Shown here: positions 6,041-30,000 of the stretch, piece by piece
How positions within the stretch are numbered: the stretch's first letter is position 1
Layout of the letters: each line of letters opens with the position of its first letter
Source of the DNA: Candidatus Coatesbacteria bacterium
GTDB lineage: Bacteria > RBG-13-66-14
DNA length: 32,068 nucleotides
NCBI GenBank assembly: GCA_014728225.1
Contig: WJLX01000052.1
Location: 1-32,068, forward strand
Reading direction: 5' to 3'
Position numbers and translations under genes: made by a program
The notes under the pieces: model-generated
Databases searched by the model: none
What the model saw: the letters and a program-made list of their open reading frames with translations, nothing else
What the model was told of the DNA's origin: nothing

Positions 6041-7432
6041 ATGCCGCCGACCAACAAGCCCAGCCGGGAACTCGTCCTCGACGAGGCCCACCTGACGAAG
6101 AACATCTTCCGCCTGGCCCTGCCGGCCATCGGCGAGATGCTGCTGCGCACCATGGTCGGCTTCGTCGACACGATCATGGTCGGCCAGGCTTTGGGCGAGA
6201 AGGGCCTGGCGGCCATCGGCCTCGGCGGCGGCATCGTCTGGCCCTTCTTCTTCCTGGCCTCGAGCTTCGGTGTGGGCTCGACGGCGGTGGTGGCCCGGAT
6301 GTGGGGGGCGCGCAGCTTCGCGGAGGCCCGCGGCGTCGCCGGGCAGTCGGTCTGGCTGGCCGTGGTCATCGGCGGCTTCCTCTCGGCGGCCGGGGCCTTC
6401 CTGCTGCCCCTGGTGGTCGACCTCTACACCGACGATCCCCTGCTGGCCGATTCAGCGCGGATCTATGTCAGCACGGTCTCCTTCGCCGGGCTGGCCTGGG
6501 TGGTGACGATGGTCAACAACTCGGTGATGCGCGGCGTGGGCGACAACGTCCGCCCGCTGATCATCACCGGGGTCACCAACGTCCTCAACATCACCCTCAA
6601 CTACCTGCTGATCTACGGTCCCGGGCCCTTCCCCGAGCTGGGTATCCGCGGGGCCGCCCTGGCCAGCGCCATCTCTTTGGCCGTTTCCGGGGTGCTCAGC
6701 CTGGTGATCGTTTACGGCGGCCACAGCAAGGTCAAGATCAAGCTGCGCGATTCCCTGCGGCCGGTGTGGAAGACGATCCGGCGCATCTTCCACGTCGGCA
6801 CGCCGGCGATGGTCGAGCAGGCCGTCTTCCGCTTCGGCCACCTGCTGACCACCTGGCTGATCACCAGCCTGGGCTCGGTGGCCCTGGCCTGCCACAAGGT
6901 CGGCGTCCACGTGGAGAGCATCTCCTTCATGCCGGGCTGGGGGCTGGCCATCGCCTCGACGACCCTGGTCGGCCAGTACCTGGGGGCGGAAAAACCCGAG
7001 CTGGCCGAGAAGGCGGGCTTCCGGGCCGCCTTCTACGCCGCGCTGCTGATGGGCTCGATGGGAGTGATCTTCGGCATCTTCGCCGGGGACCTGGTGGGCC
7101 TGTTCGTGCGCGAGGGTTCCGGAGCCTCCAACCTGCTGGTCCACGAGATCGGCACCCTGCTGATCACCATCGCCGCCGTCGAGCAGCCCGCTCTGGCGAT
7201 CCTGATGACCCTGACCGGCGGTCTGCGCGGCGCCGGGGACACGCGCTGGACCCTGGCGCTGTCGATCATCGGCCTGTGGGCCCTGCGCATTCCGGCGGCC
7301 TTCCTTTCCATCAAGGTCTTCGACTGGGGGATCATCGGCTTCTGGTCTCTGGCCTCGGCGGTGTTTTTCATCCGCGCCGGCCTGGCCTACTGGCGTTTCT
7401 CCAGCGGCAAGTGGAAACAGCTCAAGGTCTGA
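6041..7432 (+). CDS. MATE family multidrug/sodium antiporter
   Basis: This 463-residue inner-membrane protein has about twelve hydrophobic helices in two halves. The first half opens with the MATE signature LALPAIGEMLLRTMVGFVDT followed by GLGGGI. The second half repeats the pattern from IFHVGTPAMVEQAVFRFG. Other family marks are VNNSVMRGVGDN and its second-half counterpart LTGGLRGAGDT. MATE proteins export cationic drugs or metabolites in exchange for Na+ or H+. Length and layout are normal. The ATG at 6041 lies after a good promoter, although the ribosome binding site is weak. It is divergent from the aldolase operon and precedes the lipoprotein array, which has its own -10. Substrate is unknown. 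Confidence 0.93.
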   Translation: MPPTNKPSRELVLDEAHLTKNIFRLALPAIGEMLLRTMVGFVDTIMVGQALGEKGLAAIGLGGGIVWPFFFLASSFGVGSTAVVARMWGARSFAEARGVAGQSVWLAVVIGGFLSAAGAFLLPLVVDLYTDDPLLADSARIYVSTVSFAGLAWVVTMVNNSVMRGVGDNVRPLIITGVTNVLNITLNYLLIYGPGPFPELGIRGAALASAISLAVSGVLSLVIVYGGHSKVKIKLRDSLRPVWKTIRRIFHVGTPAMVEQAVFRFGHLLTTWLITSLGSVALACHKVGVHVESISFMPGWGLAIASTTLVGQYLGAEKPELAEKAGFRAAFYAALLMGSMGVIFGIFAGDLVGLFVREGSGASNLLVHEIGTLLITIAAVEQPALAILMTLTGGLRGAGDTRWTLALSIIGLWALRIPAAFLSIKVFDWGIIGFWSLASAVFFIRAGLAYWRFSSGKWKQLKV

Positions 7433-7563: not shown

Positions 7564-7875
7564 ATGAAGGAGCGTTTCGCGGTCGCCGTTCTGCTGGTCT
7601 GTGTCGGCCTGTTCGCCGCCGGCTGCGGCGAGGAGATTACCGACGACCTCTACGTCGAGGTCAAGATCGAACAGAACGAGCTGATGTTCTCCGCGGCCCT
7701 GGAGCCCGAAAAGGCCCTCGAAAAGGCCGCCGAGAACCATGACACCACGGTCGAGGCCGTCCGCGAATACCAGGCCGAGCTGGAGAAGGACCCCGACCAC
7801 CTCAAGGCGGTCAACGAGCGGATCAACCAGGCCGCCGACGAGCTGTTCCAGCCCAGCCTGCTGCCCCCCCAGTAG
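7564..7875 (+). CDS. Array lipoprotein 1 (paralogous acidic-Tyr-Val-Glu family)
   Basis: A 103-residue predicted lipoprotein. The signal peptide MKERFAVAVLLVCVGLFAAGC ends in a lipobox with Cys21. The mature part starts GEEITDDLYVEV, then a helical region with ALEKAAENHDTTVEAVREYQ and a charged LEKDPDHLKAVNERI. The ribosome binding site AAAGGAG precedes ATG 7564. It is the first of five consecutive genes with the same plan: lipobox Cys, within about ten residues an acidic-x-Tyr-[Val/Ile/Leu]-Glu motif, an amphipathic helix, and an acidic C-terminal helix. I recognise no named family. Likely attached to the inner face of the outer membrane or the periplasmic face of the inner membrane; function unknown. 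Confidence 0.8.
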   Translation: MKERFAVAVLLVCVGLFAAGCGEEITDDLYVEVKIEQNELMFSAALEPEKALEKAAENHDTTVEAVREYQAELEKDPDHLKAVNERINQAADELFQPSLLPPQ

Positions 7876-7887
7876 GAGGAGGTCGAC

Positions 7888-8256
7888 GTGCGCAAGCTAC
7901 TCGGCGCCGCAGTTTTGTCCATGCTGCTCCTCGTCGCCGGCTGCGGCTCCAGCCTGGACGACGAGAGCTATATCGAGCTGGTGATCGACAAGACCAACTA
8001 CATGATCGACGAGGGGCTGACGGCCCAGGCGGCCCTGGAGAAGGCCGCCGCCGATCATCAAACCACCCCCGACGAGGTGGCGGACTTCGAGCAGGAGCTG
8101 GCCAACGAGCCCGACCGGGTGGCCGAGATCGCCGAGCGGATCATGGAGGAGTCGACGCCGCTGCTCGAGCACTACATCGAAACTTATCGTCAGGCCTTGC
8201 CAGAGGCCGCCCCCGAGACTGCCGAAGAAACGACCACCCCCGACGAGGAGGAATAG
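7888..8256 (+). CDS. Array lipoprotein 2 (paralogous family)
   Basis: A 122-residue predicted lipoprotein beginning at GTG 7888, after AGGAGGAG. The signal peptide ends LLVAGC; the mature part begins GSSLDDESYIELVIDK. It is the closest paralogue of array protein 1: ALEKAAADHQTTPDEVADFEQ matches ALEKAAENHDTTVEAVREYQ almost position by position, followed by ELANEPDRVAEIAERI. The C-terminus is a Pro/Glu/Thr-rich tail (PETAEETTTPDEEE), possibly a disordered linker. It lies 12 bp after gene 1 and one base before gene 3, so the genes form an operon. Function unknown. Confidence 0.8.
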   Translation: MRKLLGAAVLSMLLLVAGCGSSLDDESYIELVIDKTNYMIDEGLTAQAALEKAAADHQTTPDEVADFEQELANEPDRVAEIAERIMEESTPLLEHYIETYRQALPEAAPETAEETTTPDEEE

Positions 8257-8257
8257 A

Positions 8258-8797
8258 ATGCGCGCACCCCTGGTAATCACGATCGTCCTGCTCCCGGCCG
8301 CCGTCCTGGTCGGCTGTGGCTCCGGCGAGCTGACCGAGGAGGAGTACCTGGAGATCAGTCGGGCCGTGGCCGAGGCCGAGGCCGCCGGGGATCCCGTCGC
8401 CGCCGTCTACGAGGAGTACGGCGTCACCGCCGAGGACCTGCGCGAGTTCGAAGCCGCCCACTCCGGCGACGAGCTGGCCGAGCTGCAGGGGCTCGATGTA
8501 GAGAGCGCAACCGTGGAGAGTGAGACCGCCGGCCTGGCGATGAACGAAGAGGATTACGTCGAGATGTTCGTCTATATCGGCGGCCTGCAGTCCATGGGGC
8601 TCCAGCCCGAGGAGGTCGACAGCAAGATCGACGAACACCTCGAGGAGCTGGGTTACCGTCGCGGGGATCTGCAGGAGTTCTCCGACTACGTCCAGGGCAA
8701 CCCCGAGGTCAAGGAACGTGTCGACGCCGCCATCGAGGCCGAGATCGCCGCGGGCGAGCAGATCATGATCGTCGAAGAGCCCCTCGACCAGCAGTGA
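8258..8797 (+). CDS. Array lipoprotein 3, with the domain duplicated
   Basis: A 179-residue predicted lipoprotein from ATG 8258, one base after the previous stop and preceded by GAGGAGG. The signal peptide ends AVLVGC. It holds two copies of the array domain. The first is LTEEEYLEISRA..., with YGVTAEDLREFEAAH. The second is MNEEDYVEMFVYIGG..., with LGYRRGDLQEFSDYV and NPEVKERVDAAIEAEI. The internal duplication makes it the longest member. The tyrosine/glutamate motif and the acidic helix are present in both copies. Probably a structural or binding protein rather than an enzyme; no catalytic motif is visible. Confidence 0.8.
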   Translation: MRAPLVITIVLLPAAVLVGCGSGELTEEEYLEISRAVAEAEAAGDPVAAVYEEYGVTAEDLREFEAAHSGDELAELQGLDVESATVESETAGLAMNEEDYVEMFVYIGGLQSMGLQPEEVDSKIDEHLEELGYRRGDLQEFSDYVQGNPEVKERVDAAIEAEIAAGEQIMIVEEPLDQQ

Positions 8798-9144
8798 GAC
8801 CGATGAAGCGACTCGCGCTCAGCCTGGCCCTCTGCACCCTGTCCGCCGGTTTCCTCGGCGCCTGCGACGGCATCGACGACGATGAGTACGTCGAGCTGCT
8901 GGCCGGGGCGCTTGCCGCCGAGGCCGCGGGGGAGGAGCCCGCTCGGCTCGACGGCGCCGAGCTGGCGGCCTACGAGTTCGAGCTCTTCGCCGACGAAGGC
9001 CGAGCCGCCCGGCTCCTGGCCGAGCTGCGCCGGCGGCATCCCCAACTCCTCGAGGGTGAGGCCGCCGAGAGGATCGAGGCCGTCGCCCCGGCGCCGCCGG
9101 CCACCGCCGACCTCAACGGCGCGACACCGGGAGAGCCCCGGTGA
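8794..9144 (+). CDS. Array lipoprotein 4 (paralogous family)
   Basis: A 116-residue predicted lipoprotein. The frame opens at GTG 8794, overlapping the previous stop (GTGA), with an alternative ATG at 8803. The signal peptide MKRLALSLALCTLSAGFLGAC ends in a lipobox; the mature part starts DGIDDDEYVELLAGAL. The helical body is Ala/Glu/Arg-rich (RAARLLAELRRRHPQLLEG) and diverges from members 1-3, but the post-lipobox motif is intact. It is translationally coupled to genes 3 and 5. Function unknown. Confidence 0.75.
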   Translation: MRPMKRLALSLALCTLSAGFLGACDGIDDDEYVELLAGALAAEAAGEEPARLDGAELAAYEFELFADEGRAARLLAELRRRHPQLLEGEAAERIEAVAPAPPATADLNGATPGEPR

Positions 9145-9521
9145 GCAGACCGCTCCTCGCCGCCCTGGCCCTGTCACTCCTCGGCGCCTGCGCCGAGGAC
9201 GGCTTCGATGACGAGGACTACGTCGAGCTGACCGCCGAACTGACCTTCATCGGCTCGGACCGCCACCCCGGCGGTCCGCCCCCCACCGGCGACAATGACC
9301 TCAAACGCGCCTGGCACGAGGAGCAGACCGCCGCACTGCTGGAAGAGTACGGCGTCAGCGAGGAGGAGTACCTGGAGTACTCCCTGCGCCTGCACGAAGA
9401 CCCGGCGCGCTACAGCCGGGTCATGCGGGCTCTGGCCGAGGAGTACGAGCGGCGCAACACCGAACTCGAGGACCTCGAGGCCCCCGAGGAGGTCAAGCCC
9501 CCGCCGGGCTCCTTCGGCTAG
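9141..9521 (+). CDS. Array lipoprotein 5 (paralogous family)
   Basis: A 126-residue predicted lipoprotein starting at GTG 9141, overlapping the stop of gene 4 (GTGA). The short signal peptide ends LSLLGAC, followed by AEDGFDDEDYVELTAELTFIG. A 20-residue Pro/Gly-rich linker separates this from the shared helical part YGVSEEEYLEYSLRLHEDPARYSRVM, which resembles YGVTAEDLREFEAAH of protein 3 and DTTVEAVREYQ of protein 1. The gene is followed directly by a strong terminator, which closes the array. Function unknown. Confidence 0.76.
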   Translation: MSRPLLAALALSLLGACAEDGFDDEDYVELTAELTFIGSDRHPGGPPPTGDNDLKRAWHEEQTAALLEEYGVSEEEYLEYSLRLHEDPARYSRVMRALAEEYERRNTELEDLEAPEEVKPPPGSFG

Positions 9522-13597: not shown

Positions 13598-13626
13598 TTT
13601 ACCCCGTGGCGCCGCTGGCCTATAAT
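13598..13626 (+). promoter_or_regulatory. Sigma-70 promoter of lpxI
   Basis: TTTACC (13598-13603), 17 bases, TATAAT (13621-13626). The start point would be near 13633, so the gene must start at TTG 13654 rather than at the ATG 13606, which lies upstream of the -10. Confidence 0.75.
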
Positions 13627-13653
13627 CAAGGGGCAACCTCAGAGGAGAGCGCT

Positions 13654-14523
13654 TTGGCCTATCGACCCGGAGAGGAGCTGGCCGTCATCGCCGGCGCCGG
13701 ACGCCTGCCCGTCTTGGCGGCGCGCAGTCACGCCGCCGGCGGCGGCAGGGTCTTCGTCGTCGCCCTGGAGGAAGAACCCGTAGCAGAACTGGTCGCCGTC
13801 GCCGACGACATCGTCCGTCACGCCCCCGGCGAGGTCGGCCGCATCCTGCGTCGACTGCGGCGGCGGGGCATCCGGCAGCTCCTCTTCGTCGGCAAGGTCT
13901 TCAAGGGCAAACTCTTCCGCGGGCTGCGGCTGGACCTGACCGCCCTGAAGCTCTGGGTGACCACCAGCCGCCGCAGCGACCGGGGGATTATGGATCGGCT
14001 CTGCGAGCTGGCCGCCGACAGCGGCCTCGAGGTCGTCAGCCAGCTCGAGGTCCTCGGCGATCTCCTCGTCGGCGAGGGACTGCTGACCAGGCGCGAACCC
14101 AATACCGAAGAAACCGCCGACGCCGAGCTGGGACTGCGCATCGCCGCCGCCTCCAGCCGGCTGGGTATCGGCCAGAGCGTGGTGGTGCGCGGCGGCGTCG
14201 TCGTCGCCGTCGAAGCCCTCGAGGGCACCGACGCTTGCCTGGCCCGGGCCGGGGAGCTGGCCCGCGGCGGCGGCAAGCTGTTCCGCGGCGGTCTGGTGCT
14301 GACCAAGGTCGCCGGCGACGGCCACGATCCGCGCTTCGACGTTCCCACCGTCGGCTGCCGCACCCTGGAGAACGCCGCCGCCGCAGGAGTCACCTGCCTG
14401 GCCCTGGAGAGCGGAATGACCCTGATCGCCGACGAGCTCGACGTGTTCACCGCCCGGGCCGACGAGCTGGGACTCAGCGTTCTGGGGCTCCCCGCCCCGC
14501 GGTCCGCCCCGACGGATGCGTAA
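13654..14523 (+). CDS. lpxI: UDP-2,3-diacylglucosamine diphosphatase LpxI
   Basis: LpxI hydrolyses UDP-2,3-diacylglucosamine to lipid X in the lipid A pathway, replacing LpxH in organisms lacking it. From TTG 13654 (289 residues, close to the family's 270-290) the N-terminal domain shows LAVIAGAGRLPVLAA and GKVFKGKLFRG. The C-terminal (DUF1009) domain shows SRLGIGQSVVVRGG, AVEALEGTDA, DPRFDVPTVG and the closing CLALESGMTLI. The start is fixed by a promoter and by GAGGAGAG just upstream. It indicates that the cell makes lipid A and so has an LPS outer membrane. It is isolated from other lpx genes, and ends at a perfect hairpin facing the next minus-strand gene. Confidence 0.92.
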   Translation: MAYRPGEELAVIAGAGRLPVLAARSHAAGGGRVFVVALEEEPVAELVAVADDIVRHAPGEVGRILRRLRRRGIRQLLFVGKVFKGKLFRGLRLDLTALKLWVTTSRRSDRGIMDRLCELAADSGLEVVSQLEVLGDLLVGEGLLTRREPNTEETADAELGLRIAAASSRLGIGQSVVVRGGVVVAVEALEGTDACLARAGELARGGGKLFRGGLVLTKVAGDGHDPRFDVPTVGCRTLENAAAAGVTCLALESGMTLIADELDVFTARADELGLSVLGLPAPRSAPTDA

Positions 14524-17659: not shown

Positions 17660-18421
17660 CTAGTCCCGTCCAAGGAGAATCTCCCGGGCCACGGCCAGAT
17701 AGCTCTGGGCCCCCCGGCTGGTCAGGGCGTACTCGATCACCGGCATGCCGTGGCTGGGCGCCTCGGAGAGACGGACGTTGCGCGGAATGACGGTGCGGAA
17801 GACCCGGGAGCCGAAATGCTTGCGCACCTGCTGCTCCACGTCCTCGGCCAAGCGGGTCCGCGAATCGTACATCGTCAGCAGCACGCCCTCGATCTCCAGG
17901 GGATGCTCCAGTCGTTCGCGGACGTACTCGACGGCGCGCAGCAACTGGGTCAGCCCCTCGAGGGCGTAGTACTCGGCCTGAACGGGAATCAGGATACCGT
18001 CGGCGGCCAGCAGGGCGTTGACCGTCAGTAGCCCCAGAGAGGGCGGACAGTCGAAGAGGACGTAGTCGAAGCCGTCCAGGGCGTCGACGGCCCGTCGCAG
18101 CCGGGTTGGCGCGTTGGCCGCGCTCAACAGGTCGCGCTCCAGGGAAACCATCTCCGGGACGCTGGGGACCAGCATCAGCCCCTCGGAGGCGGTGGGGCGG
18201 CAGGCCGCATCGAGCTCGGCCTCACCCAACAGCACGTCGTGCAGGGAGGGCTGCCCGTTGTCGCCGTAGACCCCGAGGCCCGAGCCGGCGTTGCCCTGGG
18301 GATCGACGTCGACGATCAGGGTCCGGCGACCGGCGGCGGCCAGGGAGGCGCCCAGATTGACGGCGGTGGTGGTTTTGCCCACCCCGCCCTTCTGGTTGGC
18401 GATGGCGATGCGTCGGGTCAT
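17660..18421 (-). CDS. parA: Chromosome partitioning ATPase ParA (Soj)
   Basis: A 253-residue Walker-type ATPase with KGGVGKTT (11-18, deviant Walker A), VDVDPQGNAG (Walker A') and FDCPPSLGLL (Walker B). Later motifs are QAEYYALEGL and TMYDSRTRLAEDV. ParA forms nucleoid-bound dimers with ATP and drives origin segregation with ParB. The order rsmG-parA-parB is the classic chromosomal arrangement near oriC. Length is typical and all motifs are intact. It lies 30 bp after rsmG. Confidence 0.95.
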   Translation of the reverse strand: MTRRIAIANQKGGVGKTTTAVNLGASLAAAGRRTLIVDVDPQGNAGSGLGVYGDNGQPSLHDVLLGEAELDAACRPTASEGLMLVPSVPEMVSLERDLLSAANAPTRLRRAVDALDGFDYVLFDCPPSLGLLTVNALLAADGILIPVQAEYYALEGLTQLLRAVEYVRERLEHPLEIEGVLLTMYDSRTRLAEDVEQQVRKHFGSRVFRTVIPRNVRLSEAPSHGMPVIEYALTSRGAQSYLAVAREILLGRD

Positions 18422-18451
18422 GGCGGTTTCAGGCGGCTCGCGGTCGGTTAG

Positions 18452-19297
18452 TCACTCGGGGATGGCCGTTGAGGTACCGGTGTTCTCCAGCCGGCGGATC
18501 AGCAGGCGATGCGCGGACCGTCGTCCGACGTCGGGCAACAGCCCGTCGTAACTCGACTCGCGCCAGTCCGCTCCGGGGAGCGGCTCCCGGGGTCCCGCCA
18601 GGCAGATCAACTGGCCGCCGGGCTTGAGCAGGCGACGGCAGACCCGCCAGGCGACGGCCGGTTTCCAGACGGCCCGGGTGTAGACGGCGGTCCAGGGCGG
18701 TCCTTCGTGACCGTCGTCCGGGGTCAACTCCTCGACCCGGGCGCAGAGTACGGTCCAGTCGAGCCCGCAAAGCGGGACGGTCGAGGGTCCGTCCGGGATG
18801 GTTTCACCCGCTGGACCCGGCGAGGTCCCCCGGCTCTCGGCCCCCGGACTCGGAGCGATAGTAGAGGTCGTCGAGGGTCCGTCCGGGATGGTTTCACCCG
18901 CTGGACCCGGCGAGGCCCCCCGGCTCTCGGCCTGCCAATCCAGCCCGGCCAGGCGGCGCAGGAAGCTGGCCCGGCGGCGGCGGGGCTCGACGAGGACCAG
19001 GCGGCCGGGCCGCAGGAGGCTCAGGCACAGGGCGACCAGACCAGCACCGGCGCCGATGTCGGCGACGCGGCCCGCGGCGGGCAGCACCCGGCTCAGGGCG
19101 GCGGCGTCCACTATGGCGTCCTCGAGCAGGGCGTCGAGGTCGGCGTCGCGGGAGACCAGGTTGAAGCGGCGGTTCCAGGCGGCGAGCAATCGCCGATAGG
19201 CCCGGAGCATCAACTCCGCGCCCCCGGCTCGATCCGCCGCTGGACCGGCTTGGCGCAGACGGACGGCCCAGTTGTGAAACAGTGGCGAGTCTAGCAC
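18452..19297 (-). CDS. rsmG: 16S rRNA m7G527 methyltransferase RsmG with a repeat insert
   Basis: The protein methylates N7 of G527 in 16S rRNA. The family pattern appears as YRRLLAAWNRRFNLVSRD, then VADIGAGAGLVALCLSLL (SAM motif I), LVEPRRRRASFLRRL, RVEELTPDD and LKPGGQLICLAGP. Between GLDW (of RRLAGLDWQ) and a second GLDW (of CGLDWTVL) there is an extra insert of about 60 residues, built from two near-identical 20-residue repeats (ESRG[AT]SPGPAGETIPDGPST). With the insert removed the family alignment closes. GTG 19297 is my choice of start; ATG 19210 is an alternative, and an ATG at 19357 is also open but overlaps the end of the preceding gene. The N-terminus before YRRLL is not conserved. 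Confidence 0.85.
   Translation of the reverse strand: MLDSPLFHNWAVRLRQAGPAADRAGGAELMLRAYRRLLAAWNRRFNLVSRDADLDALLEDAIVDAAALSRVLPAAGRVADIGAGAGLVALCLSLLRPGRLVLVEPRRRRASFLRRLAGLDWQAESRGASPGPAGETIPDGPSTTSTIAPSPGAESRGTSPGPAGETIPDGPSTVPLCGLDWTVLCARVEELTPDDGHEGPPWTAVYTRAVWKPAVAWRVCRRLLKPGGQLICLAGPREPLPGADWRESSYDGLLPDVGRRSAHRLLIRRLENTGTSTAIPE
18781..18932. repeat. 62-bp direct repeat in rsmG, period 90 bp
   Basis: Bases 18781-18842 recur at 18871-18932 with a single mismatch seen by eye. The 90-bp period preserves the reading frame. On a larger scale the flanks CCAGTCGAGCCC (18755-18766) and CCAATCCAGCCC (18935-18946) match at 10 of 12 positions and lie exactly 180 bp apart. Confidence 0.85.
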
Positions 19298-19331
19298 AGG
19301 CGGGTGGGGAAGTCCAGATTGAGAGTGCGGC

Positions 19332-20246
19332 TCAGCGGCTCCAGCGCGCCGTGGCATCGCGGTACTCGTCGTCGGTGATCCGGCGGACGAAATCGCCGTA
19401 CCAGGTGAAGAGGCACAGATCGGTCTGGCCGTCGCGGTTGGTGACGGCCAGGATGTAGTCGCCGGAGGGCGAGACGGCCGGGGAGTACTCCATCCACTCG
19501 TCGGATTCGATCAGGGTGCCGTTGTTGGCGGCGTTGCCGAAGTCGGTGTAGGCGATGTCCAGGTTGCCCTCGTGGAGCAGCTCGTAGATGATGTAGTCGC
19601 CCTCGGGATCGAAGACGGGCCGGCTGACGTCGCCCTCGGCGTCGGTGACCCGCCAGGGTTCGTCCTTGCCGGTCAGGTCGATGGTGTAGATGTCGAGAGC
19701 GCCGTGCTGGTCGCTGACGTAGGCCAGGTAGGTGCCCTCGGGGTCGATAGCCAACTGGTTGTCGTCGGAGCGGCGGTTGGTCAGCCGGACGGGCTCGGCG
19801 CCCAGAACCTGGTAATCGAGGGCGTAGACCTCATCGTCGCCCAGGACGCTGGTCGAGACGTAGTAGATGGTCGTGCCGTCGGGGGAGAAGACGGGGTCGG
19901 CCTTGTAGGTGCCCTCCTCGGTGATCAGGCGGACGCCGGGGGGGTCGCCGAGTTCGATCAGCGCCAGCTCACGGAAACCGCGAATGCTGGCGATGCAGAC
20001 GATGCTCCGCCCGTCGGGGGCCAGACAGGGCGTGTAGAAGCCGTCGACGCCGCGCAGGCTCGAGGGGTTGGTCAAGACGGTCTGTTCCTCACCCTGGGGG
20101 TCGGTGAGGACGATCTGGCTCATCTCGTCGCGAACGCTGGCGTAGACGATCTTGCCGGGCAGCTCGACGTAGGGGTCGACCTCGGGCCGGCAGCCGACGA
20201 TGACGACGGCGGCGACGAGGACCAGGGCGAGACAGATGCGGCGCAT
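19332..20246 (-). CDS. PD40/TolB-like beta-propeller lipoprotein
   Basis: From ATG 20246 (after AGGAGG) this is a 304-residue predicted lipoprotein with lipobox VVIVGC. The mature part is a series of propeller blades with the WD40-like PD40 signature: LAPDGRSIVCIAS, FSPDGTTIYYVST, IDPEGTYLAYVSD, FDPEGDYIIYELL, VSPSGDYILAVTN. These resemble TolB and other protein-binding propellers; the TolB N-terminal domain is absent. It lies 2 bp after the activase gene and is translationally linked to it, an unusual pairing. Function not known; periplasmic protein binding is the simplest guess. Confidence 0.82.
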   Translation of the reverse strand: MRRICLALVLVAAVVIVGCRPEVDPYVELPGKIVYASVRDEMSQIVLTDPQGEEQTVLTNPSSLRGVDGFYTPCLAPDGRSIVCIASIRGFRELALIELGDPPGVRLITEEGTYKADPVFSPDGTTIYYVSTSVLGDDEVYALDYQVLGAEPVRLTNRRSDDNQLAIDPEGTYLAYVSDQHGALDIYTIDLTGKDEPWRVTDAEGDVSRPVFDPEGDYIIYELLHEGNLDIAYTDFGNAANNGTLIESDEWMEYSPAVSPSGDYILAVTNRDGQTDLCLFTWYGDFVRRITDDEYRDATARWSR

Positions 20247-21421: not shown

Positions 21422-23254
21422 ATGCGAACGAGGCACTTCGTTGTGTTGCTGGCCCTGGCCCTGACCCTGCCGGCCCTGGCGGGCGCCCAACTGGGCGTAC
21501 TGTACTTCAAGGTCGCGGCTCCCGACGACAGCTACGACTACCTCTCCGAGGGTCTGGCCGAGATGCTGATGACCGACCTCGCCAACCAGCCGGACATCAC
21601 CGTGGTCGAGCGCGAGCGCCTGGATCGAGTGCTACAGGAGCACGCCCTCTCCGGCTCCGGGATCACTGACCCCGAGCAGGCCGTCGAGGTCGGCCGGATG
21701 CTCAAGCTGGACCTGATGATCATGGGCACGCTGACCCTGGTCGAGGAATCGATGCGCCTGGACGCCCAGGTCCTCGGGGTCGAGACCGGTGAGATCCTCG
21801 GCGGCGTCCGTGCCGAGACTCCGGACACCGACGGCGTCTTCGAGATGCTCGACCAGCTAAGCGCCATGCTCGTCGACAAGATCCGCGACATGCGCTACGG
21901 TAACCCCAACACCCCCGTGGTCTTCGTCGATCCCGCCGGCGACGCCCCCCGGGTCGATGTGGCCTTCATCGTCGACACCACGGGCAGCATGGGTGACGAG
22001 ATCGAGGTCGTCAAGCAGAAGATGCGCGAGATCGCCAGCGAGGTGGCCCGGGGCAACCCCGCTCCCGCCGTGCGCTTCGCCATCGTCGAGTACCGCGATC
22101 GCGGCGACGCCTACGTCACCAAGATCAGCGACTTCACCTATGACGTCGTCGAGCTTCATGGGGTGATCAACGGCATCTACGCCGGCGGCGGCGGCGATAC
22201 CCCGGAAAGCGTCTACCGCGCCCTCGACGACGGCCTCAACGAAATCGACTGGGACGATGACGACGAGATAACCAAACTGGTCTTCCTGATCGGCGACGCC
22301 GGGCCCCACGAGTACGATGACGAGTACTACGACATCGAGGACGCCGTCGACGACGCCAACGATCTGGGCGCCAGCATCTTCGCCATCGGCTGCTCCGGCC
22401 TGGACCAGGATTACGGCGCCACCGAGGCCTTCAAGCAGGTGGCCTACGAGACCAACGGCAGCTTCGAGTACCTTTCCTACCGCCAGATCTACCAGGACGC
22501 CGCCACCGGCGAGGTCACCAGCCTGATCTACGAGGGCGGCCGCTACTACGACGAGGATGAGGTCCGGCGCGAGCTGGAGGAATCCGGCGTGGTCGACGAC
22601 GACACCGACATCTTCGAGATCGGCGTCACCCGGATCAACAAGGCCGCCGAGGCTTCCGATCGCGGCGAGGTCGACACCGAGAGCGAGGGCTTCGGCTCCG
22701 GCGGCGCCGTCGGCAGCATCACCTCCTCACCCTCGACCGTCTCCGACGAGACCGTCGCCGCCGCCGAGGAGCGGGCCGCCGGAATGGCCTACACCGGCGG
22801 CACCTCCGGCGCCATGGTGGCCCAGGAGAACAACCTCGATTCCCTGATCACCCAGGTCATCCAGTTCAACGCCGCCACCCAGGGCGTCAGCTACGACATG
22901 GGCGTCGCCCAGGCCCGGGTCAAAGTCCGCCAGGGCGACGAGGAGTACTGGGTGCCGATCAGCGATCCGGCCCAGGTCGAGCGCCTGCGCGAGGCCGCCG
23001 AGAACGGTGAGACCCTCTGGCTGGCCGCCGGCGTCAAGACCGTCACCGACGAGGAATCCGAGGAGACCAAGATCGCTTTCAAGTCCGGCACCCTGCGCGT
23101 CTACAACGAAGGCGAGACCGTCCCCCTGATGACCCAGCGCACCCTGGACGAGCTCGAGGAAGACCCCGCCTACTACGCCGCCAACGGTTTGGGCGACAAG
23201 AACCAGTGGAGCTTCCAGGCCGAGATCGTCGACTTCGAAGAAGTCGAGCGCTAG
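21422..23254 (+). CDS. Secreted CsgG-like/von Willebrand A fusion protein
   Basis: The 610-residue protein has a signal peptide to about residue 22. A CsgG/FlgO-like domain follows (about 23-155): YLSEGLAEMLMTDLA, VVERERLDRVLQEH, GRMLKLDLMIMGTLT, LGVETGEILGG. Then comes a vWA domain (about 178-375) with a MIDAS: D185 of DTTGSM, T260 (GGDTPESV) and D292 (GDAGPHEY). The C-terminal part (about 430-610) is Ser/Thr/Gly-rich, then alpha/beta. It is preceded by GGAGGAACC. The CsgG-vWA fusion suggests a secreted or surface metal-dependent binding protein. No transmembrane anchor is seen at the C-terminus. Function unknown. Confidence 0.8.
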   Translation: MRTRHFVVLLALALTLPALAGAQLGVLYFKVAAPDDSYDYLSEGLAEMLMTDLANQPDITVVERERLDRVLQEHALSGSGITDPEQAVEVGRMLKLDLMIMGTLTLVEESMRLDAQVLGVETGEILGGVRAETPDTDGVFEMLDQLSAMLVDKIRDMRYGNPNTPVVFVDPAGDAPRVDVAFIVDTTGSMGDEIEVVKQKMREIASEVARGNPAPAVRFAIVEYRDRGDAYVTKISDFTYDVVELHGVINGIYAGGGGDTPESVYRALDDGLNEIDWDDDDEITKLVFLIGDAGPHEYDDEYYDIEDAVDDANDLGASIFAIGCSGLDQDYGATEAFKQVAYETNGSFEYLSYRQIYQDAATGEVTSLIYEGGRYYDEDEVRRELEESGVVDDDTDIFEIGVTRINKAAEASDRGEVDTESEGFGSGGAVGSITSSPSTVSDETVAAAEERAAGMAYTGGTSGAMVAQENNLDSLITQVIQFNAATQGVSYDMGVAQARVKVRQGDEEYWVPISDPAQVERLREAAENGETLWLAAGVKTVTDEESEETKIAFKSGTLRVYNEGETVPLMTQRTLDELEEDPAYYAANGLGDKNQWSFQAEIVDFEEVER

Positions 23255-26610: not shown

Positions 26611-26949
26611 TTCGTTTGGTGTCACCGCCCGCTGTTGGATACTCGATCCGCCAAACGGGAGGATAGCCCGGTCCTCCCCTACAGGGTTTCTTCAACGACG
26701 TCAGGATGTCCAAACGGCGCCGGCCGATGATAACGCCGCCCGCCCCCGGGGGGACGACTGTTTCCGGCCGCCCGCTTCGACACCCGGCCGAAAAGCCCCA
26801 CACCCTTCTCCCTCCCCACGAGGATAGACATTACAAAAGCAGGAGCTCCCGGCGGTACAGAACCGTACCCATCGTTCGCTGCGCAAGAGTGTAGGCCCGG
26901 CAGCGGCGTCGACCCAACTTGAAGCGGAAATCCGCCGAACGGCCGGAAC
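26611..26949. other. Gene-free spacer before the large secreted protein
   Basis: No frame is convincing. One palindromic repeat related to the CGTAGGG family lies at about 26657-26688 (GGGAGGATAG, CCCGGT, CCTCCCCTACAGGG). Otherwise I see nothing in it. Confidence 0.5.
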
Positions 26950-26978
26950 TTGTCGCGGCGGCGCCCATGGGTTATGAT
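26950..26978 (+). promoter_or_regulatory. Promoter of the large TPR/DUF3857 gene
   Basis: TTGTCG (26950-26955), 17 bases, TATGAT (26973-26978). It rules out the upstream ATG at 26950 and supports GTG 27031. Confidence 0.6.
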
Positions 26979-27030
26979 TGGCCCCACACTGGCCGATACG
27001 CTCGAAGCCGCGCCCAACCCGGAGGCCCCC

Positions 27031-30000
27031 GTGAAACGCATCCTCCTCTGTCTCGTCCCGCTGCTGCTCTGGACGACGCCGGCGGTCCACGCCGAAGCGG
27101 TGCCCGCCCTGTCCGCCTTCGAGCTGCTGCTGGACGGCGCCGACCCCCACGAAGCGGCCGCGGCCCCCGTCGCCGCCGGCGACGCCGCGGGCTGGGAGGC
27201 GCGGGGCTGGGCCAGGCTGCTGCTGGGCGAGGACCGGGCGGCCCTCGAGGCCTTCCGGGCGGCCCTGGAGGCCGATCCCGCCGGCCTGCGCGGCGAGGCC
27301 CTGATCCGCGACCTGCTGCGCTACGTCGACTACAGCGGCGACTTCGCCGCCGTCGAGGGTGTCCTGATCGAACTGACTGCGGGTGACGACCTCACCCCGG
27401 GGGCCCGTCGGGCGGCCAACCGCTGGCTGGCTTTCCTGGCCCGTCGCCGCGGCGACGCAAGCGAGCTCGCCGAACGCCGCCGGGCCGTCGGCCTGCTGAA
27501 CGACTGGAGCGTCGTCGGCCCCTTCGTCCGCTCCGGACCCCTGGACATCGACTGGGAGTTCCCGCCGGAACGCCGCCTGCGCGACGCCTACGAGCTGCCC
27601 GTCCTCGGCGAGACCCGCTGGACGACGCCCCCCGCCGGCGACAGCCGCGGCTTCATCCCCCTCGAGGAGGTCACGGCGATCAGCCGGGGCACGGCCTACG
27701 CCCTGTGCTACGTCTACCTGCCCCGGGACGGCGAGTACAACCTCAACCTGGTCGCCGACGACGCCTGCAAGATCTGGGTCGACGAGACCCTCGTCGGTGT
27801 GCGCGACGACATCCGCAGCGCCGCCCCCGTCGAGATCGACTATCCCTTCAGCGCCCCGGCGGGCTGGCACCGGCTCATGGTCAAATGCCGCCGCCACAAC
27901 TACCTCAGCTCGAGCCAGGTCGAGGTCGCCTGGGGTTTCAAGCTGGAGCTGACCGGAGCCGACGGCCGTGCCGTCGACGGCCTCGAGGTCTCGACGGACC
28001 GCGGGTTGGAGCGCGAGACGGAGGAGGGCGTCGCCGTTCCGCCGCACAATGCGGAACTGCCCGCCGACGACGCCGGGCTGTTTCACCGGGCCGTCATCGC
28101 CGCCCACCGTGAGGACTACGACGGCGCCCTGGGGCTGCTCAACGAGCTGCAACAGCGGCGACCCGACGGTGAGCTGATCCGCCTGCTGACCGGCTGGGTG
28201 CTGGAGGCCGACGGCAGCGAGGAACGCACCGGGCGCGCCCGCACCCAGTACCAGCGCGTCGTGGCCGCCGAACCCGCCATCCTGCCCGCCCAACTGGCCC
28301 TGGCCGAGACCGAGGCCGACGAGGGCCGCTACTGGAGCGCCCTGGCCCGGCTGCAGTCCCTGATCCAAACCAACCCTGACTCGCCCGACCTCTGGTTGGC
28401 CCTGGCCTATCGCTATAACGAGAAGGGCGTCACCCCCCGGGAGGACGAAGCCTTCGCCGCGGCCCTGACGGCGGCGCCGGACAACCTCGAGGCCCTGCTG
28501 CAGCGGGCCCGCTTCCTCGACCGCAACGAGCGCCCCCTCGAGGCCCTCGAGGTTCTCGAGCGCCTGCTGGAGCTCGCCCCCGACCATTCGACCGCCCGCA
28601 GCGACCTGGCCGACCTGCTGCAGGAGATCGGCGACTACCGGGGAGCCGCCGAACACTACCGCCTGCTGATCGCGGCCGACCCCTACGACGTCAACGCCCG
28701 TCTCGAGCTGGCCCGCTGCTACCTCAAAGGCGGCTTCGGCGACCGCGAAGCCGTCTACCGGGAGCTGATCGAGGCCGCGCCCCACGACTACCGGGGCTAC
28801 CTCAACCTCGGCCTGGCCCTCGAGGCGCAGGGCGGCGACGCCGCCGAGCTGCTCACCGAAGCCCTGGAGAAGTATCCGGCCAAGGACTGGCTGCGCCGCT
28901 ACCTGGCCTGGCGCTCCGCCGAGCTGGACGACGAGTTCCAACCCACCGTCGAGGAGCTGCTGGCCTCGGCCCCGGAACCCGCCGACTACCCCAAAAGCGA
29001 CGCGGTCATGCTGTTCGACTACCTGCGGATGGATGTCAACGCCGACTACACCTACGCCACCACCCTGCGCCAGGTGGTCAAGATCCTCGCTCCCACTGGC
29101 CTGGAACGCTGGGGCGAGGTCGTCGTACCGGACAACGGCGACCTGGAGCTGATCCACGCCCGCACCTACACCCCCGACGGCCGGACCCTCGAGGCGACGA
29201 CCATCAACACCACCGACGGCGGACGCGCCGTCAGCATGGAGGGCGTCCGCGTCGGCTCGATCATCGATGTCTGCTACCGCCAGCACTCCGAGTACCGGAT
29301 CATCACCGAGCTGTTCGATCACTGGACCAGCCGCTTCTACTTCCGCGAATACGGCGACCCCCTGGTCCTCAGCCGCTTCGTCGTCAGCGCCCCCGACGTC
29401 CTCGAGGTCGAGTACGACGAGCGCGGCTTCAACGGCGACAGCTACCGGGTCCGTCTGCCCGACGGCCTGAGCTCGGCGGGCGACGCCCCCTACAATCTCG
29501 AACCACGCACCGCCTACGTCCACGAGGTGCGCGACGCTCCGGCCATCCAATCCGAGGGCCTGATGCCCGAGCGCGGCACCTTCACCCCCTTCGTCGTCTT
29601 CTCGACCCTCGAGGAGCCGGCGGTCTATTTCGACTGGTACCACGGCCGGGCCCTGGAAGCCCTGCGCCCCGACGAACCCGTGCGCGAGCTGACCCGTCGT
29701 CTGACCGCCGACGTCGACGACCCACGGACCCGGGCCGAACGGCTCTACTCCTATGTGGTGCGGGAGATCAAGGGCTACGGCGGCGGCGCCTTCTACCCCG
29801 ACAGCGTCCGCCGGACCTACTACCGCCGCGCCGGCCGCGACGTCGAACGCCTGCTGCTGTTCATCGCCCTCTGCCGCGAAATCGGCCTCGAAGCCGAGCT
29901 CTGCCTGACCCGCTCGCGCTGGGACGGCCCCCGGATGGACGACGCCTTCACCCCGGCCGAGTTCACCAAGCCCATCGCCCGCCTGGAACTACCCGACGAC

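Follow-up and report, generated by a model that had tools for sequence, protein, structure and literature searches.

An ancient, position-conserved array of five related predicted lipoproteins with a common helical domain in Candidatus Coatesbacteria

Five neighboring open reading frames on the forward strand of a 32,068-nucleotide stretch of Candidatus Coatesbacteria DNA (the window) encode small predicted lipoproteins, whose relatedness is far above chance. Alignments and profiles identified one common domain of ~65 residues in all five proteins, which occurs twice in the third. The proteins are homologous and share a predicted fold, their duplication is ancient, they are under purifying selection, and in relatives the array lies next to lnt. 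We tentatively propose that the five genes form one array and encode helical adaptor modules that are held in the cell envelope by a lipid anchor and specialized by position. Docking of the modules on partners, and the membrane and pathway in which it may occur, belong to this hypothesis.

Gene 1 (7564-7875) encodes 103 residues, with the domain at residues ~25-93. Gene 2 (7888-8256) encodes 122 residues, with the domain at ~23-90 followed by an acidic tail. Gene 3 (8258-8797) encodes 179 residues with two domains in tandem, gene 4 (8794-9144) 116 residues with a degenerate domain copy, and gene 5 (9141-9521) 126 residues with a long loop between helices 1 and 2. A 1-bp gap separates the end of gene 2 at 8256 from the start of gene 3 at 8258, and GTGA overlaps are found between genes 3 and 4 (8794-8797) and genes 4 and 5 (9141-9144). 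Genes 1, 2 and 3 are preceded by strong Shine-Dalgarno sequences. By inspection, the signal peptides end in lipobox-like cysteines, AAGC (Cys21), VAGC (Cys19), LVGC (Cys20), LGAC (Cys24) and LGAC (Cys17) in genes 1 to 5; in genes 1 and 4 this cysteine is the second in the protein. A signal peptide with a lipobox cysteine, the mark of bacterial lipoproteins, is thus seen in five of five proteins, and we infer that the products are secreted and lipidated. The mature chains are strongly acidic (21-29% D+E, pI ~4). The motifs DLYVE, ESYIE, EEYLE, DEYVE and EDYVE follow the cysteine in genes 1 to 5, respectively. The initial annotation had described five tandem paralogous lipoproteins with this arrangement, and the coordinates, gap, overlaps and motifs all agree with it, as does the finding of one domain by profile.

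A hidden Markov model trained without the window's genome recovered gene 3 (E 7e-21), gene 2 (7.5e-20, rounded 8e-20), gene 1 (3e-18) and gene 5 (3e-16), all computed with Z=5000. The two halves of gene 3 matched separately (iE 7e-10 and 1e-10), and its model contains two predicted repeats, which confirms the earlier suggestion that it carries the domain twice. The match of gene 4 alone is weak (E 6e-3) and reaches 3e-6 once its own orthologues join the profile, so we regard it as a degenerate copy whose membership rests on these orthologues. The paralogues are highly diverged, with identities of ~13-38%. Searches of Pfam, NCBIfam and PHROGs with the five proteins gave nothing above cut-off, only sub-threshold chance matches, in line with the earlier view that they belong to no named family. 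No similarity to enzyme-like or ligand-binding families was found in the family libraries. One match of the profile in another genome (G057, L079) is a sigma factor and was discarded as a chance hit.

Structure prediction with AF2 suggested that the domain is a four-helix unit. The mature chain of gene 5, modeled with 22 relatives, is predicted to form helices at residues 8-21, 36-53, 58-69 and 72-96 (mean pLDDT 86.8, pTM 0.70). For gene 3, the predicted model contains two repeats of this four-helix unit, and its confidence is modest (pLDDT 77, pTM 0.46). Neither model resembles a solved structure, and no significant match was found in the PDB by sequence or by fold. In the model, the conserved residues D/E-D/E-x-Y, YG-x-T-x-E and DP-x-R are located at helix starts and turns. 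Helix 1 would be capped at its N-terminus by the Y-motif, which also makes up its first turn, and GVT-x-E-[DE] would supply both the turn and the N-cap that lie between helices 2 and 3. The two motifs thus seem to mark the fold and not a site for a ligand. The initial annotation had suggested a periplasmic ligand- or partner-binding set; partner binding is plausible, and nothing points to binding of small ligands.

The array is old. Positional orthologues in the order 1-2-3-4-5 are found in five related genomes (G001 and G003-G006), and in genus g4 one additional copy precedes them. Orthologues of gene 5 are 46-59% identical, and its best orthologues in named genomes are all Candidatus Coatesbacteria metagenome-assembled genomes, RBG_13_66_14 among them. 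In a tree of the domains, genes 1, 2, 3a, 3b, 4 and 5 form separate clades with one row per genome. Each half of gene 3 has its own orthologue clade, and so does gene 4 (SH-aLRT 97). The small number of columns limits the resolution of this tree, in which support is no more than 80-90 at several forks. The gene 5 group also takes in two rows with long branches from other phyla. Between two g4 genomes, Nei-Gojobori dN/dS is 0.04-0.43 for the array genes and 0.25 for lnt. The paralogues are thus old, constrained and non-redundant, and each has been kept distinct across several genera. Both the tree and the array's age rule out a recent tandem duplication. The earlier proposal of expansion by tandem duplication with divergence therefore holds for the tandem origin, whereas the set is ancient and frozen in position rather than a product of ongoing local duplication. 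A small envelope lipoprotein domain is ordinary in kind; its ancient, position-conserved expansion is unusual.

The domain is not confined to the array. Among 14 Coatesbacteria genomes sampled, seven belong to the array-bearing family, and all seven have 5-15 domain matches by profile search, the fewest in the two least complete genomes. The copies are mostly lipoproteins and are organized in two tandem clusters and single genes. The host genome contains about a dozen or more. Its second cluster, on contig C26, encodes lipoproteins with one or two domains, some with long amphipathic, glycine-rich tails. Within this cluster, one paralogue (L143:9554-10228) has an N-terminal CxxC..CxxC zinc ribbon followed by a transmembrane helix and the domain, an architecture that fits a periplasmic module able to exchange one anchor for another. 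A further lipoprotein of the family lies beside a gene for an AMP-binding enzyme on contig C153. No copy was detected by profile searches in Coatesbacteria families f2-f5, which implies that the role of the domain is not essential to the phylum.

Several other features were observed in the genome and the window. Another tandem run of lipoproteins (L005:446-3155, reverse strand) has no match to the domain profile, and such arrays seem to be common in this genome. At L062:2815-5645 (reverse strand), a run of genes for small exported proteins and lipoproteins lies downstream of an AMP-binding enzyme gene, and this run is partly conserved in L065 and L066. In the window, the forward-strand gene at 13606-14523 encodes an LpxI-like UDP-2,3-diacylglucosamine diphosphatase (3e-40, under the NCBIfam cut-off), which suggests that the cell makes lipid A and has an outer membrane. 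A ParA-family ATPase beside a GidB-like gene at 17660-19357 (reverse strand) represents a usual chromosome-origin neighborhood. One protein, at 21422-23254 (forward strand), unusually combines CsgG with von Willebrand A domains. A 980-residue open reading frame without a Pfam match at 26701-29643 (reverse strand) is overlapped by one of 1274 residues on the opposite strand; either may be coding.

Outside Coatesbacteria, the family profile found single matches in ~15 genomes of other phyla, to exported proteins that are single-copy there. A reciprocal profile made solely from these proteins recovered the Coatesbacteria copies, including gene 2 of the window at 8e-10, plus single matches elsewhere. 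Profile-profile comparison of the two sets gave 98.5%. The proteins from other phyla (for example L030, L031, L071, L074-L076 and L078) contain the same domain as the array, but occur once per genome and not in an array. Some have yraN, ispG or cdsA as neighbors, not lnt.

These single-copy proteins connect the family to Pfam DUF4296 (PF14129), a lipoprotein family of Bacteroidota. Three of the six tested match DUF4296 weakly, at 15.6-23 bits, below the curated gathering cut-off of 27 bits. At this cut-off, neither the five proteins nor any Coatesbacteria genome has a match. With hhalign, DUF4296 aligned with the single-copy proteins at 93-94% and with the Coatesbacteria set at 41-74%, depending on direction; reversed controls gave ~3% or less, and shuffled controls scored well below the observed values. 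Like the array proteins, DUF4296 proteins are short lipoproteins with the domain right after the lipobox cysteine. In both, a helix-1 region and a variable loop are followed by the pattern [YH]-x-[VI]-[TS]-x-x-[EQ]-[FY], and a P-[ED] turn leads into the last helix. However, the DUF4296 signature F-x-x-S-x-x-[YW]-Y is not kept in the Coatesbacteria proteins. DUF4296 is single-copy (of 61 genomes from one Bacteroidota family, 60 have exactly one), whereas the Coatesbacteria family is multi-copy, tandem, doubled in one protein and once membrane-anchored. We conclude from these sequence comparisons that the array family is a remote homologue of DUF4296 and not a member of it. No paper on DUF4296 was found in the library searched. 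The initial annotation had named two outcomes that would speak against it: matches restricted to a domain of settled function, and unrelated predicted folds. Neither was seen, and the sole named relative, DUF4296, has no known function.

The gene neighborhood bears on what the array does. A gene for an apolipoprotein N-acyltransferase of ~583 residues, lnt (LNT_N 2e-27; TIGR00546 264 bits), is located directly upstream of the array on the same strand in G001-G006, six of the seven array genomes. The window's genome is the exception: its lnt is at the end of contig C128, and a MATE exporter gene (6041-7432, forward strand; Pfam MatE 8e-55) takes its place before the array. The initial annotation had named the exporter as a neighbor to examine, and its same-strand upstream position would suit array proteins that are its periplasmic ligand-binding partners. 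We consider this role very improbable, and synteny largely refutes it: the exporter lies outside the conserved unit, and the six other array genomes have lnt upstream and no MATE gene beside the array. In addition, gene 1 has its own ribosome-binding site and begins after a gap of 131 bp, and the array proteins show no similarity to binding-protein families. Lnt completes lipoprotein maturation, so co-transcription of lnt and the array would make sense, but their adjacency is not in itself proof of a link. The neighborhood may be incidental, since lnt of the host is not adjacent to the array, and the second cluster is flanked on one side by a gene resembling that for ribosomal protein S1, with an acyl-CoA dehydrogenase gene nearby. 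The acyltransferase gene in relatives would also suit abundant structural or surface lipoproteins, such as Lpp-like spacers or a surface coat, whose copies would be retained for dosage or because they differ in expression. The array proteins are indeed small, acidic, helical and encoded in tandem, and some paralogues have the long amphipathic, glycine-rich tails. Such a role is nevertheless unlikely, because dosage alone is insufficient to explain copies with ~13-38% identity that are each conserved in position, and because the domain is a predicted four-helix unit, not a single long helix. The Lpp/OprI alanine-zipper family (NCBIfam NF040598), which is also small, acidic and helical, is likewise a single zipper helix; gene 2 matches it weakly, at 18.1 bits against a cut-off of 43, which places the array outside that family.

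Another candidate role, to which we assign a low probability, is that of an accessory to an SprA-type (type 9-like) outer-membrane translocon, with individual paralogues acting on different substrates or at different steps of assembly. An SprA_N protein is present in 13 of 15 non-Coatesbacteria carriers of the domain, compared to 99 among all 379 genomes (p 9e-7 by Fisher's test, uncorrected for kinship), and an SprA_N-like segment is found in six of the seven array genomes, in open reading frames of ~1900 residues where complete. In the sampled Bacteroidota family, DUF4296 adjoins, and mostly follows, the type 9 secretion gene porD in most loci. PorD is an extended-translocon protein of this system (PMC10994853; PMC8754138). 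However, SprA_N and the domain may both simply track one broad clade, and their co-occurrence is enriched rather than strict. Bacteroides ihuae has DUF4296 and no SprA_N match, Coatesbacteria families f2-f4 have SprA-like proteins and no detected domain, and the domain is undetected in most SprA genomes. No PorD match was found in the array genomes, in a search that had no positive control. A strict role in type 9 secretion was downgraded, since DUF4296 without SprA and SprA without the domain both occur. Separately, the distant SprA_N-like segment in the ~1900-residue Coatesbacteria proteins (G000:C81:4438-4824, with equivalents in G001 and G003-G006) may mark a type 9-like translocon.

Returning to the adaptor modules, each protein would be exported, lipidated and trimmed, and then held at a membrane facing the periplasm. 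There its acidic four-helix module of ~65 residues, set directly behind the lipid-bearing cysteine, may dock onto a protein of the machinery that assembles or maintains the envelope. The ancestor would have been a single-copy lipoprotein, remotely akin to DUF4296 and still found once per genome in other phyla, that was duplicated in one Coatesbacteria family; the duplicates may then have specialized and been kept by position since. A more speculative version, which we hold to be improbable, is that Coatesbacteria have a lineage-specific set of specialized DUF4296-like adaptor lipoproteins, which most members of the family express together with Lnt and which extends an SprA-type machine, or another one for envelope assembly, so that each client or assembly step has its own module.

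Our analysis delineates a lipoprotein domain of the envelope that is missing from curated libraries and ties it to DUF4296, which is nearly universal in the sampled Bacteroidota family. In one lineage this domain has multiplied and stayed conserved in position, which provides natural variation. Together with the synteny clues of lnt, porD and SprA co-occurrence, this variation makes the function of DUF4296 testable.
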